Virus record (IMG/VR): IMGVR_UViG_3300020405_000029
Span: 1 to 21,894 of that record
Direction: 5' to 3' (one strand)
Source: a virus
DNA: 21,894 bases
Notes under the pieces: generated by a model
The model's database searches: none
The model's input: only the letters and a program-made list of their open reading frames with translations
What the model was told of the DNA's origin: nothing
Position numbers and translations under genes: made by a program
In this document: in pieces, positions 11,891-19,251 of the stretch
How positions within the stretch are numbered: position 1 is the first letter of the stretch
How the letters are laid out: each line of letters begins with the position of its first letter

Positions 11891-12895
11891 ATGAAATTAA
11901 GAATGAATAGAAGAGAGTTTGGTATAGGTACTGCTACTGCTATTGCGGCCTTATCAGCTTTCCCTACGTTTGCAGGTGGCAAATTAAAAGTTGCTGGTAT
12001 ATACACAGTACCAACACAACAAAAGTGGGTAGCAAGATTGCATCTTGCACTTGATGCCGCGGCAAAACGTGGTGAGATAGATTACGTATATTCAGAGAGT
12101 ACTGCTAATACTGATTACGTAAGAGTTATGAGAGAATACTGCGATAGTGGTGTAAACATGATTGTTGGTGAGGCTTTTGGTATTAGTAAAGAAGCTAGAA
12201 AAGTTGCTGATGATTATGAGAATATTGCATTTTTAATGGGCGATCCATTCAAGCCACATGGAAACAACTTCTCAGTATTTGATAACTATATTCACGAACC
12301 ATGCTTTCTGATGGGAATATTAGCTGGTGAAATGAGTAAGACTAAGAAACTTGGTATGGTAGGCGGTTATGCCATCGGTGAAGTCAATAGATTATTTCAT
12401 GCATTTATGGACGGAGCTAAGAGTATGAATCCTGAATGTGAGTTTAAAGTAACTTATATTGGTTCTTGGTATGATCCGCCAAAAGCAAAAGAAGCCGCTT
12501 TTGCACAGATAGAAGCTGGTTGTGATATATTATATGCTGAACGTGCAGGTGTTGTAGATGCTTGTAGAGAAAAAGGTATACTAGCTTTTGGTAATGTGAA
12601 TGATATGAACAAAGAAGAAAACGGTACAGATGTTGTTGTTACTTCTGCTTTATGGCATATGGAAGGTGCAATTGATCATGCGATTGCTAAAGTAAAAGCT
12701 GGTAACTGGAGTGCTGAAGAGTATCATGATTGGACTATGATGGCAAAAGGTGGTGCATCTCTAGCACCTTACTATGAGTTTGATAGTAAAATATCAGCAG
12801 ACATGAAAGCAAAGATTGCAGGTTTATCTGAAAGAATAATCTCTGGTGACTTTGTTGTAAAAATTACTGATGATGAACCAAAGTCTACATTTTAA
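11891..12895 (+). CDS. BMP/PnrA-family ABC transporter solute-binding protein, Tat signal
   Basis: A 334-residue protein of the length usual for periplasmic solute-binding proteins. The N-terminus has a twin-arginine signal (NRREFGIG, then a hydrophobic AIAALSAFP) with a likely cut after TFA. The mature part, KLKVAGIYTVPTQQKWVARL, followed by VRVMREYCDSGVNMIVGEAFG, ENIAFLMGD and EPCFLMGILAGEMSKTKKLGMVGG, matches the BMP (Med/PnrA) family, which binds purine nucleosides or related small molecules for ABC import. No permease or ATPase lies nearby, so it would have to serve a host transporter. The ribosome site AAGGAG is strong. Acquisition from the host is likely. Confidence 0.85.
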   Translation: MKLRMNRREFGIGTATAIAALSAFPTFAGGKLKVAGIYTVPTQQKWVARLHLALDAAAKRGEIDYVYSESTANTDYVRVMREYCDSGVNMIVGEAFGISKEARKVADDYENIAFLMGDPFKPHGNNFSVFDNYIHEPCFLMGILAGEMSKTKKLGMVGGYAIGEVNRLFHAFMDGAKSMNPECEFKVTYIGSWYDPPKAKEAAFAQIEAGCDILYAERAGVVDACREKGILAFGNVNDMNKEENGTDVVVTSALWHMEGAIDHAIAKVKAGNWSAEEYHDWTMMAKGGASLAPYYEFDSKISADMKAKIAGLSERIISGDFVVKITDDEPKSTF

Positions 12896-14637: not shown

Positions 14638-14666
14638 TTGACTCTTAACGAATCATATGTTATAAA
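14638..14666 (+). promoter_or_regulatory. tmRNA promoter
   Basis: TTGACT (14638-14643) and TATAAA (14661-14666) are separated by 17 bases. The -10 lies within TATAAATA, so late transcription could also use it. Transcription would start near 14673, about 10 bases before the first base-paired segment of the tmRNA acceptor piece. Confidence 0.7.
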
Positions 14667-14672
14667 TAAACT

Positions 14673-14940
14673 GTTCGTTGATACTAACATGAACACTAAA
14701 CAGGACCCGAGGGCAGTACTCGGCGCCTCCACCAAATCCCAAATAGCTTCGAATGAGGGGGCGAAACAGGATCGACTGGTAGATTAGTAAGTTAGAGTAG
14801 AACATTTAAACTAAATGCAAACGATAATTTTGCACCTGTTGATTACGCCCTAGCGGCTTAATCTAACTGAGTTTTGAGAATGTACTTGGAAACAGAAACA
14901 TTCTCACCAGTTTACTAGAATACCCGACGGGGTATCCGTG
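14673..14940 (+). ncRNA. ssrA: Circularly permuted two-piece tmRNA (acceptor piece, spacer, coding piece)
   Basis: The gene runs in permuted order. The acceptor piece ends at CCTCC-ACCA (14734), a 22-base spacer follows, and the coding piece begins GGGGGCG (14757). GGGGGCG (14757-14763) pairs with CGCCTCC (14724-14730) in a seven-pair acceptor stem. The T-stem is CCGAG/CTCGG (14707-14711, 14719-14723). Helix P2 is supported by TTAGT (14784-14788) with ACTAA (14695-14699), and GTTAG (14791-14795) with CTAAC (14684-14688). AACAGGATCGACTGG resembles the tmRNA D-region. After the tag, GAGAATG/CATTCTC (14876/14899) plus TTGG/CCAG (14886/14907) form a probable pseudoknot. The RNA rescues stalled ribosomes and tags their products. 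The 3' end is uncertain and could lie between 14910 and 15120. Confidence 0.9.
14817..14861 (+). other. tmRNA tag reading frame (ANDNFAPVDYALAA)
   Basis: From the resume codon GCA (14817) to TAA (14859-14861) the RNA encodes ANDNFAPVDYALAA; with the alanine carried by the tmRNA the tag is 15 residues. The AANDNFA start is of the alphaproteobacterial type and the ALAA end is the classic ClpXP degron. Confidence 0.9.
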
Positions 14941-15134
14941 TTGTGCAAGGAAGAGAGTGTCACCAGGACATTCGAACTTGACTAGTTAGGGGTGGTACCC
15001 AGGCATGGTTGTAGAAATACGTTGTGTCACATTGTCATACCTGACGGAACTAGGTTCTGAAGATTTAAGAAATGGTATCTTGGTTCTTCAGTTGAGGGTG
15101 TACCCAAGTCCCTCCAACACATTTTATAAAGGAG
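14941..15134 (+). other. Structured stretch of about 190 bases without a recognised gene
   Basis: There is no convincing ORF, tRNA or T-tract here. Stems seen are CTGAAGA (15057-15063) with TCTTCAG (15085-15091), and GTTGAGGG (15091-15098) with CCCTCCAAC (15110-15118, one bulged C). It could be the 3' extension of the tmRNA precursor or the leader of the next gene. Confidence 0.4.
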
Positions 15135-15140
15135 ATGAGA

Positions 15141-15500
15141 GTGAAGCAATTTGTATATGATAGTTGGAATGGTGTGATGAGTCTTGAACACAATCCACTT
15201 AAAAACATTCCTAGCTTACAAGCAAGACATCTAATTTTACAATGTTTAGCATGGACATGGTGTACAACCTTTTCTCTTAGTATTGGTAGTATATACGTAT
15301 TTGGTTTTACTGCGATTGCTCACGTATTAATATTAGCGGCTATAGTGATTACAGTATCTACATTTGAAACTGCTAAGAGAAAGCCACACTTCTTTTTGAA
15401 AAGTGGATATCATAGTTATCCTAGAGCAAGACAGAACATGTACGTTAATGGTGAAAAAATTAAATTAGATAGAGATGATCCCGGTGGGGAACACGAATAA
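15141..15500 (+). CDS. Conserved phage membrane protein, about 119 residues
   Basis: I favour GTG 15141, six bases after GGAG (15131-15134); the ATG at 15135 directly touches GGAG and is badly spaced. The product begins MKQFVYDSWNGVMSLEHNPL and has two membrane spans (about 34-54 and 56-76: WTWCTTFSLSIGSIYVFGF and IAHVLILAAIVITVSTF). The C-terminus is charged and ends DRDDPGGEHE. The pattern seems conserved in T4-like marine phages from memory. The role is unknown. A terminator follows after about 100 bases. Confidence 0.6.
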   Translation: MKQFVYDSWNGVMSLEHNPLKNIPSLQARHLILQCLAWTWCTTFSLSIGSIYVFGFTAIAHVLILAAIVITVSTFETAKRKPHFFLKSGYHSYPRARQNMYVNGEKIKLDRDDPGGEHE

Positions 15501-15594
15501 TATGTCTCAGTACCAGGCCTTCGTAGCACATAAGTGACAGGAGTAGTAAGATACTTTAGAGTTTAGATGAAATGGCCTTCATCAACATATTTTT

Positions 15595-15624
15595 AGGGAA
15601 GTAGCATTAGTTACTTCCCTTTTT
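15595..15624 (+). terminator. Rho-independent terminator
   Basis: AGGGAAGTA (15595-15603) pairs perfectly with TACTTCCCT (15612-15620) around an eight-base loop, followed by TTTT. A second small hairpin, GATGAA/TTCATC (15566-15571, 15578-15583), lies just upstream. The 200-base gap between 15500 and 15700 holds these structures and no convincing ORF. Confidence 0.75.
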
Positions 15625-17195: not shown

Positions 17196-17426
17196 ATGGC
17201 ACTTGAAGTAATGAATGTTAGTAAATTCTCCACAACGATTGAACAAGTTGTTGTGGAGAAAAAAATACCATATATGGAAGCAGTTGTATGGTATTGTGAA
17301 AGAAATAATATGGAAATAGAAGTTGCGGCTAAACTATTGAATGCTATCATAAAAGCTAAGATAGAGGCTGAGGCTATAGACTTAAACTTTTTATCAACAC
17401 CTAAGGGATCAAAACTACCGATATAA
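17196..17426 (+). CDS. 33: gp33-like late transcription co-activator
   Basis: A 76-residue protein with KFSTTIEQVVVEKKIPYMEA, a helical middle (VVWYCERNNMEIEVAAKLLN) and a C-terminal LNFLSTPKGSKLPI. It matches, from memory, the short gp33 homologues of marine T4-like phages; T4 gp33 is longer (112 residues). gp33 binds the RNA polymerase beta-flap and the gp45 clamp to activate late promoters. Its position directly before gp59 and gp32 is the T4 order and strongly supports the call. It begins on the base after the hydrolase stop. An 11-bp perfect inverted repeat lies in its first 65 bases. Confidence 0.75.
   Translation: MALEVMNVSKFSTTIEQVVVEKKIPYMEAVVWYCERNNMEIEVAAKLLNAIIKAKIEAEAIDLNFLSTPKGSKLPI
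17226..17260. repeat. Perfect 11-bp inverted repeat inside gene 33
   Basis: TTCTCCACAAC (17226-17236) is the exact reverse complement of GTTGTGGAGAA (17250-17260), separated by 13 bases. In the mRNA it forms a stable hairpin 30 bases into gene 33. It is followed by A residues, so it is not a terminator on this strand. Confidence 0.7.
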
Positions 17427-17429
17427 ATC

Positions 17430-18026
17430 ATGAATGGACTTGAAGCATATTCTACATATCTAGCCGTTCGTAATCATTTCAAAACAGACTATGATTATTT
17501 TAAATACAACGGCAAAATCAAAGTAAACGAAGATAAATTTAGAACACGAAGAGATCATTATCAATTCGAAAAGATGGCTCGTATCTATAACAAAGAACAG
17601 TTTACAAAATATCTTATTGCTAATTTTATAAAAGAAGATGATTATATGTTTGGTATGTCACAAGGTAGAGCAATGGTTACTCACAAGAAGTGGCAGAAAG
17701 ATGTTGAATCATTTTCATATCAGTTTAAAGAAGATATCAAAACTATGTATGAGTATGAACCAGATTTTAATTCTCACTTTGATTGTATGAAAGATGGTAT
17801 TTTACACCCTATATTATTTAAATTATATCTAAGAGAAAAAGTACATATAAATACATGTGTAGCTTTAAATCAGTTACTTAATTATACTAAAGTTTGGGAA
17901 CAACTTGAAAATAAAATGTTAAAAGATTTTATCTTTTTACTTGACAAATACACTCCCTTTCTGTATAGTTATACTAATATCGACAAGAATAAGTCAAAGC
18001 AAATTGTTCTGGAGGAGTTTAAATGA
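17430..18026 (+). CDS. 59: gp59-like helicase loader
   Basis: A 198-residue protein close in length to T4 gp59 (217). The opening LEAYSTYLAVRNHFKTDYDYFKYN followed by RTRRDHYQFEKMARIYNK corresponds to the T4 pattern of YKLYLMIKQH...YDVIKYN and KRRDKYFFQKLSEKY. Later FKEDIKTMYEYEP and HPILFKLYLREKVHINTCVAL also align with T4 gp59. In T4 this protein loads the gp41 replicative helicase on gp32-coated DNA at forks. It lies between gp33 and gp32 as expected. Its 3' end holds a promoter for the next gene. Confidence 0.88.
   Translation: MNGLEAYSTYLAVRNHFKTDYDYFKYNGKIKVNEDKFRTRRDHYQFEKMARIYNKEQFTKYLIANFIKEDDYMFGMSQGRAMVTHKKWQKDVESFSYQFKEDIKTMYEYEPDFNSHFDCMKDGILHPILFKLYLREKVHINTCVALNQLLNYTKVWEQLENKMLKDFIFLLDKYTPFLYSYTNIDKNKSKQIVLEEFK
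17941..17969 (+). promoter_or_regulatory. Intragenic promoter near the end of gene 59
   Basis: TTGACA (17941-17946) and TATAGT (17964-17969) are 17 bases apart, within the coding sequence of gene 59. Transcription would start near 17976, before the ATG at 18023, which also has GGAGG upstream. Confidence 0.6.
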
Positions 18027-18360: not shown

Positions 18361-19251
18361 ATGGCACAATCTTTCGCCGCACTTAAAAAATCTCGTTCAA
18401 GTTCTTTGAGCAAGTTAGTTACCGAAACAGCAAAAATAAATGCACCAACAGAAGGTTCAAACGAAGATAATCGTTTCTGGACACCTACTGTTGATAAAGC
18501 TGGCAACGGCTATGCAGTTATTCGATTTTTACCAGAACCAAAAGGTGAAGACTTACCTTGGGTTCGTGTATTCTCACATGGCTTTCAAGGGCCATCTGGT
18601 AAATGGTACATTGAAAACTCACTTACAACTTTCAATGAGAAAGATCCAGTAAGTGAATATAATTCTACATTATGGAACAATGGTACTGAAGCTGGTAAAG
18701 AACAGGCTCGTAAACAAAAGCGAAGACTATCTTACATTGCGAATATTTACGTAGTGAAAGATCCATCAAACCCAGAGAACGAAGGAACAGTTCGACTCTA
18801 TAAGTTTGGTAAGAAAATCTTTGACAAACTCAACGAAAAAATGAACCCTGAATTTGAAGATGAAACTGCTACTAACCCATTTGATTTCTGGGAAGGTGCA
18901 GACTTAAAATTGAAAATTCGTAATGTTGAAGGCTATCGTAACTACGATAAGTCTGAGTTTGCTGAAGTATCACCATTGCTTGATGGTGATGACGATAAAC
19001 TTGAAAAAGTTTATGAGTCAATGTTTTCTCTTCAAGAGTTTCTTGATAGAAAGCATTTTAAAACCTATAACGAACTTCAAGCAAAGCTTGATATGGTATT
19101 AGGTTTATCTGGTAGTACACCTGCACCTTCAGTAAAAACTGCTGAAGAGAATGTAGTTGAAATGCCAAAGCAGAAAGAAGTTTCTGCACCGAAGATTGAT
19201 AGTGATGATGAGAACCTCTCATTCTTTGAGAAGTTAGCAGAAGACGATTAA
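18361..19251 (+). CDS. 32: gp32 single-stranded DNA-binding protein
   Basis: A 296-residue protein. The basic, serine-rich N-terminus (ALKKSRSSSLSKL) fits the cooperative-binding domain. The OB-fold core shows YAVIRFLPEP, FSHGFQGPSGKWYIEN, RRLSYIANIYVVKDPSNPENEG, YKFGKKIFDKLNE and NPFDFWEGADLKLKI, all aligned with T4 gp32. The acidic C-terminus (DSDDENLSFFEKLAEDD) is the partner-binding tail. His73 is kept, but the cysteines that hold zinc in T4 are absent (SLTTFNEKDPVSEY in that place). It coats single-stranded DNA in replication, recombination and repair, and partners with the gp59 and Rnh encoded here. It has its own promoter and terminator. Confidence 0.95.
   Translation: MAQSFAALKKSRSSSLSKLVTETAKINAPTEGSNEDNRFWTPTVDKAGNGYAVIRFLPEPKGEDLPWVRVFSHGFQGPSGKWYIENSLTTFNEKDPVSEYNSTLWNNGTEAGKEQARKQKRRLSYIANIYVVKDPSNPENEGTVRLYKFGKKIFDKLNEKMNPEFEDETATNPFDFWEGADLKLKIRNVEGYRNYDKSEFAEVSPLLDGDDDKLEKVYESMFSLQEFLDRKHFKTYNELQAKLDMVLGLSGSTPAPSVKTAEENVVEMPKQKEVSAPKIDSDDENLSFFEKLAEDD

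Follow-up and report, generated by a model that had tools for sequence, protein, structure and literature searches.

Two-piece tmRNAs encoded by phages were published in 2022, with Methylophilales phage Melnitz (MZ577095-8) as a case in which a glutamine riboswitch was also described (PMC9004378). In that study fifty-three of the phage tmRNAs were of the two-piece type, fifty of these being marine or aquatic, and roles in maintenance of the host machinery or in selective degradation of host proteins were proposed. The tmRNA was present in seventeen of forty-seven Melnitz-related contigs, so it is not universal in this phage group and is dispensable. Another study lists 79 unique tmRNA sequences from phages and presents the tmRNA_permuted model (PMC11915505), and SsrA is annotated in the records of both Melnitz and Pelagibacter phage Mosig (MT647606). 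The gene analysed here lies in a 21,894-nt stretch of DNA with 33% G+C (the window; IMG/VR virus record IMGVR_UViG_3300020405_000029). It is a variant of this already published kind of tmRNA, one that lacks pseudoknot 1 and is linked to a manA RNA, and the novelty implied in a preliminary description of the locus is lower given the 2022 report. The promoter, the tmRNA and the elements behind it up to 15620 are on the + strand.

As read from the sequence, the gene is a circularly permuted two-piece tmRNA of a T4-like marine phage. Matches were obtained to the Rfam models alpha_tmRNA (RF01849; 14634-14906, 108.9 bits, cutoff 50, E 2.8e-29) and tmRNA_permuted (RF04321; 14682-14861, 88.8 bits, cutoff 47, E 3.5e-16), and ARAGORN called a permuted tmRNA with the tag ANDNFAPVDYALAA. 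The permuted two-piece tmRNA of the preliminary description, which had proposed an alpha_tmRNA search as a check, is borne out by these three results. Given both E values and the ARAGORN call, chance is excluded; the two covariance models and the covariation among homologues likewise rule out an ARAGORN artefact.

The acceptor piece, the tRNA-like 3′ portion ending in an encoded CCA (about 14672-14734), is encoded ahead of the coding piece (14757 to about 14906), so that the whole runs in permuted order from 14672 to 14906. Between the CCA and the acceptor 5′ strand lies a 22-nt spacer (14735-14756) predicted to be excised from the precursor. The coding piece comprises the acceptor 5′ strand, a D-like region, the 3′ strands of P2, the tag and the post-tag pseudoknot. 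The tRNA-like domain is complete: the acceptor strand CGCCUCC-ACCA (14724-14734) meets its partner GGGGGCG (14757-14763) in a closed stem of 7 bp (14757-14763/14724-14730) with a G3-U70 pair, and the T arm (14707-14723) consists of a 5-bp stem (14707-14711/14719-14723), which also closes, and a 7-nt loop. The outer helix (14672-14676/14800-14804) and the P2 pairs close as well. A short frame at 14817-14861 begins with a resume Ala codon, encodes ANDNFAPVDYALAA with its AA end and is followed by a stop, beyond which lies the post-tag pseudoknot (14867-14905; S1 14876-14883/14898-14905, S2 14867-14872/14884-14889). Permuted order, tRNA-like domain, G3-U70, ANDN...AA tag and post-tag pseudoknot are all shared with the alphaproteobacterial two-piece tmRNA (RF01849). 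The processing points predicted earlier, 14734 and 14757, appear to be correctly placed. The tmRNA had been thought to extend to 14940; its real end is near 14906, 14920-15124 being a separate manA RNA, so that a coding piece closer to 150 nt is expected instead of the 180-250 bases given before, unless 3′ trimming is incomplete.

Two DNA patterns, each matching at least 120 viral stretches, were run in IMG/VR. From the matched loci 201 tmRNAs with both pieces were extracted, a few of them bacterial, and 161 were left after removal of near-duplicates. Permuted order with seven acceptor pairs was found in 207 of 214 pattern matches, and spacers among the homologues range from 7 to 499 nt. In the alignment of the 161 homologues, the pairs with the highest mutual information fall in the T-stem, acceptor stem, P2, outer helix and post-tag pseudoknot. 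Standard pairs occupy 99.8% of cells in the acceptor stem, 100% in the T-stem (with compensatory changes in four of its five pairs), 95.9% in P2a and 93.0% in the outer helix; S1 is 74.1% paired (slid versions 44-53%) and S2 77.7% (slid versions 28-55%). Compensatory changes occur in all six helices, many of them in the pseudoknot, and each pairs well above its slid versions, a control in which helices are shifted by 1-3 columns and which somewhat favours the chosen registers, these having been picked partly from the same alignment. The seven-pair acceptor stem, T-stem, P2 helices and post-tag pseudoknot seen initially in the window thus have counterparts among the homologues. For P2b, the register CUA/UAG is 88.1% paired, while homologue support for P2c is weak. 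Two further pairings that close in the window were rejected for want of support from the homologues: a helix around the tag region (14807-14812/14909-14914) and a 5-bp register for P2b. G3-U70 is found in 201 of 201 homologues; the extraction pattern demanded G3 but not U70, and a minimum of six standard pairs was set in the acceptor search. The ANDN start and AA end of the tag are mostly kept (the AA end was part of tag recognition in this set) while the codons vary, as expected under selection on the peptide.

The window tmRNA departs from the alphaproteobacterial type between P2 and the resume codon, where pseudoknot 1 is absent. Only 12 nt (UUUAAACUAAAU) separate the outer helix from the GCA resume codon, and this codon lies 60 nt from the coding start. 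In the sampled bacterial tmRNAs, taken from high-scoring or small genomes, the latter distance is mostly 81-95 nt where measurable, which leaves room for pseudoknot 1; the exceptions are one ambiguous value of 117 and three of 69-70, which belong to alternative in-frame starts. Fewer than 75 nt precede the resume codon in 46 of 197 loci of a mostly viral set. It has been described that only two tmRNAs of the set examined in PMC1168896, in addition to the mitochondrial form, are without helix 4 of pseudoknot 1, and this pseudoknot is usual in tmRNA rather than defining. The form without it may be new, and the absence of pseudoknot 1 could weaken tagging. The host's own tmRNA may lack pseudoknot 1 as well; the one bacterial pattern scan contained no SAR11 genomes by title.

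A putative sigma-70-type promoter (14638-14666) was identified ahead of the tmRNA, consisting of TTGACT (14638-14643), 17 nt and TATAAA (14661-14666), and it ends five bases before the outer helix. It was missed by a generic promoter scan, the rule of which demands T at position 6 of the -10 box. Of 158 homologues, 99 have the sequence TT[GT]AC-N16-19-TAT[AT][AT] just 5′ of the outer helix, compared with 1.3 expected from shuffled sequences and 1.7 from random windows, with the -10 box mostly ending 7-11 nt ahead of the helix; the tmRNA's own promoter, which had been proposed at the outset, is well supported by this. The T4-like nature of the carrier was also correctly recognised, homologues of gp33 (17196-17426), gp59 (17430-18026) and gp32 (18361-19251) being present in the window. 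In 62 loci a PD-(D/E)XK exonuclease homologue is located no more than 600 nt upstream of the tmRNA, and 67 loci have gp33 no more than 600 nt downstream of it. In the window the exonuclease lies a short way upstream, with gp33 some 2.3 kb downstream. Because T4-like neighbour genes are shared among the loci, the tmRNA gene is phage-borne, and host contamination is ruled out by these neighbours and the shared synteny. The window also has a possibly host-derived metabolic gene (11891-12895), whose product is a PnrA-like (Bmp) ABC-transporter substrate-binding protein that starts with an RR signal-like sequence, and, close to the tmRNA, a gene for Fe-S cluster assembly (PF01521; 12993-13283).

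Among named phages, Mosig has its tmRNA at the equivalent position, behind a PD-(D/E)XK nuclease and a short ORF, but with gp33 immediately after it; ARAGORN gives its tag as GEDNFALAA. Melnitz resembles the window in being a T4-like marine phage with an alpha-type permuted tmRNA (tag ANDNYVPVDYALAA), no SmpB and a structured RNA directly after the tmRNA. It differs in having a spacer of 142 nt rather than 22, a longer stretch ahead of the resume codon and, behind the tmRNA, a glutamine riboswitch (RF01739) instead of a manA RNA. A glutamine riboswitch also occupies this slot in contig L060.

The manA RNA of the window (RF01745; 14920-15124, 75.6 bits against a curated cutoff of 55.2, E 6.7e-18) lies in tandem with the tmRNA, 13 nt past its end. 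It occupies a 5′ UTR position, 10 nt ahead of an ORF of 121 aa (15135-15500, or from GTG at 15141) which possesses hydrophobic stretches and GGAG just ahead of its start. This ORF has no family match in PHROG or Pfam; many of the loci have a homologue of it in the vicinity of the tmRNA (30 hits with the window counted, each on the same strand as the tmRNA). In eight contigs manA directly follows the tmRNA, within about 20 nt of its end: the window, L241, L246, L177 (where manA is cut by the contig end), L179, L197, L324 and L373. Direct Rfam hits to manA exist for the window, L241, L246 and L179, and the remaining contigs were assigned by similarity to these; L324 and L373 are two further true cases obtained with wide DNA patterns, for which the other matches listed are mostly unrelated, and a manA-like match in L174 looks false. 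L177 and L179 are near-identical in this region, and so are the manA copies of the window and L241; the independent tandem lineages are therefore fewer than eight. Mosig also has a manA RNA, absent as a feature from its record, located about 3 kb downstream of the tmRNA and directly before a rubrerythrin gene (L002 5974-6181).

No terminator lies between tmRNA and manA, which suggests that they share a transcript; the likely transcription unit would end at an intrinsic terminator at 15595-15620 (an 11-pair stem, then a T run). In the window, L179 and L324, manA precedes an ORF that has a Shine-Dalgarno-like sequence, and in the window manA probably controls the next gene. In L241 and L246, whose manA copies differ in this from the usual arrangement, action in cis on a downstream gene is unlikely, as no ORF of 20 aa starts between manA and the terminator. 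No ligand of manA is given in the literature examined. The link between tmRNA and manA is undescribed in the open-access literature searched, and the tandem may be new. It is a tentative and rather doubtful suggestion that in marine T4-like phages the tmRNA gene heads an operon of structured RNAs, in which one promoter would serve a minimal two-piece tmRNA without pseudoknot 1 joined to a sensing RNA, which is manA here and the glutamine riboswitch in Melnitz and L060. Some of these operons would include one more, undescribed RNA element, and a single transcript would couple ribosome rescue to a sensed metabolite.

A candidate structured RNA element (GCCUUCRUAGC ... GACAG ... GUAAGA hairpin) at 15490-15590 recurs in over a dozen viral contigs (the window, L241, L246, L197, L106, L245, L518-L523, L526, L530, L535 and L537). 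GCCUUCRUAGC, GACAG and the hairpin loop GUAAGA are invariant, the 4-bp hairpin stem covaries (AGUA/UACU, AUUG/CAAU, AUCG/CGAU, AACG/CGUU), and GCC could pair with a downstream GGC. It occurs downstream of tmRNA-manA, within tmRNA spacers (L106, L197), immediately ahead of tRNAs (L521, L526) or alone, and has no Rfam match in the window (E up to 1) or in L245 and L246 (E up to 0.1). Directly 3′ of the tmRNA, L044, L199, L233, L212 and L206 have a long conserved non-coding stretch, apparently structured, with blocks like GGACTACCAAGAAG..AAGGTAGACTCG and GGCAGGGCGCGCTGGA and no Rfam match at the gathering cutoff. The tmRNA spacer of L241 and L246, between CCA and coding piece, contains a hydrophobic ORF of 38 aa (in L241, MKNPLVQKLSKWLFRLYVLWSISADIILIGGIAYLIFF) that has a ribosome-binding site and a stop adjoining GGGGGCG.

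The gene is likely to be a functional permuted ssrA that rescues ribosomes with host factors. Taking its sequence features together with established knowledge of trans-translation, host RNA polymerase would start at the tmRNA's own promoter, and the spacer would be removed by the host enzymes that process tRNAs, with RNase P cutting at 14757 and a 3′ nuclease acting at 14734, to leave an acceptor piece (about 63 nt) paired with the coding piece. Host alanyl-tRNA synthetase would charge the RNA via G3-U70, and host SmpB and EF-Tu would deliver it to ribosomes stuck on truncated mRNAs. There the ribosome would resume at GCA and append ANDNFAPVDYALAA, by which its product would become a target of host proteases while the ribosome itself is freed; the likeliest benefit would be that ribosomes are kept cycling while mRNAs are broken down during infection. 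The tag ends in ALAA, the usual degron, and permuted bacterial tmRNAs carry similar ANDN...AA tags, so that the phage-specific tag signal suggested at first is not supported. Nor is there support for the phage supplying ribosome rescue by itself, as had been supposed: SmpB was not found in the window or in twenty-five large, complete or related viral records (controls were positive in ten of fourteen named genomes), and the phage tmRNA would therefore have to use host SmpB.

The same lack of SmpB in related phages would suit a decoy, whose tRNA-like part would compete for host SmpB and so shut down host trans-translation, the role suggested for the mycobacteriophage DS6A tmRNA, which has no tag. 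An RNA like that of DS6A, limited to the tRNA-like domain, strongly inhibits tmRNA (PMC4131195, PMC11915505), and the absence of pseudoknot 1 also fits. A decoy, however, has no need of the tag frame, resume codon, AA end, stop and post-tag pseudoknot that are kept across about 200 homologues; since the tag is kept, a decoy is less likely than ribosome rescue, and it is considered improbable here. Directed proteolysis, in which the phage tag would send host or incomplete proteins to proteases for amino-acid recycling, has been proposed for Melnitz (PMC9004378) and agrees with the ALAA end and the host-type promoter upstream. Tagging is set by stalling, however, and not by protein identity, bacteria have similar tags, and no sign of selectivity was seen in this analysis, so that directed proteolysis is given slightly less weight still. 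Host ssrA is a common integration site (PMC11915505), from which a captured, non-functional relic could arise, for example by imprecise excision; this origin is very improbable, given pairing that is conserved with compensatory changes and the conserved promoter and phage synteny.

No functional test of a phage two-piece tmRNA was found in the literature searched. The conservation of promoter, tag and structure in about two hundred copies suggests that infection by marine T4-like phages regularly involves ribosome rescue. The form lacking pseudoknot 1 offers a natural test of the minimal requirements of a tmRNA. Furthermore, the repeated presence of manA or a glutamine riboswitch behind the tmRNA provides a new context in which to seek the ligand and role of the orphan manA RNA.
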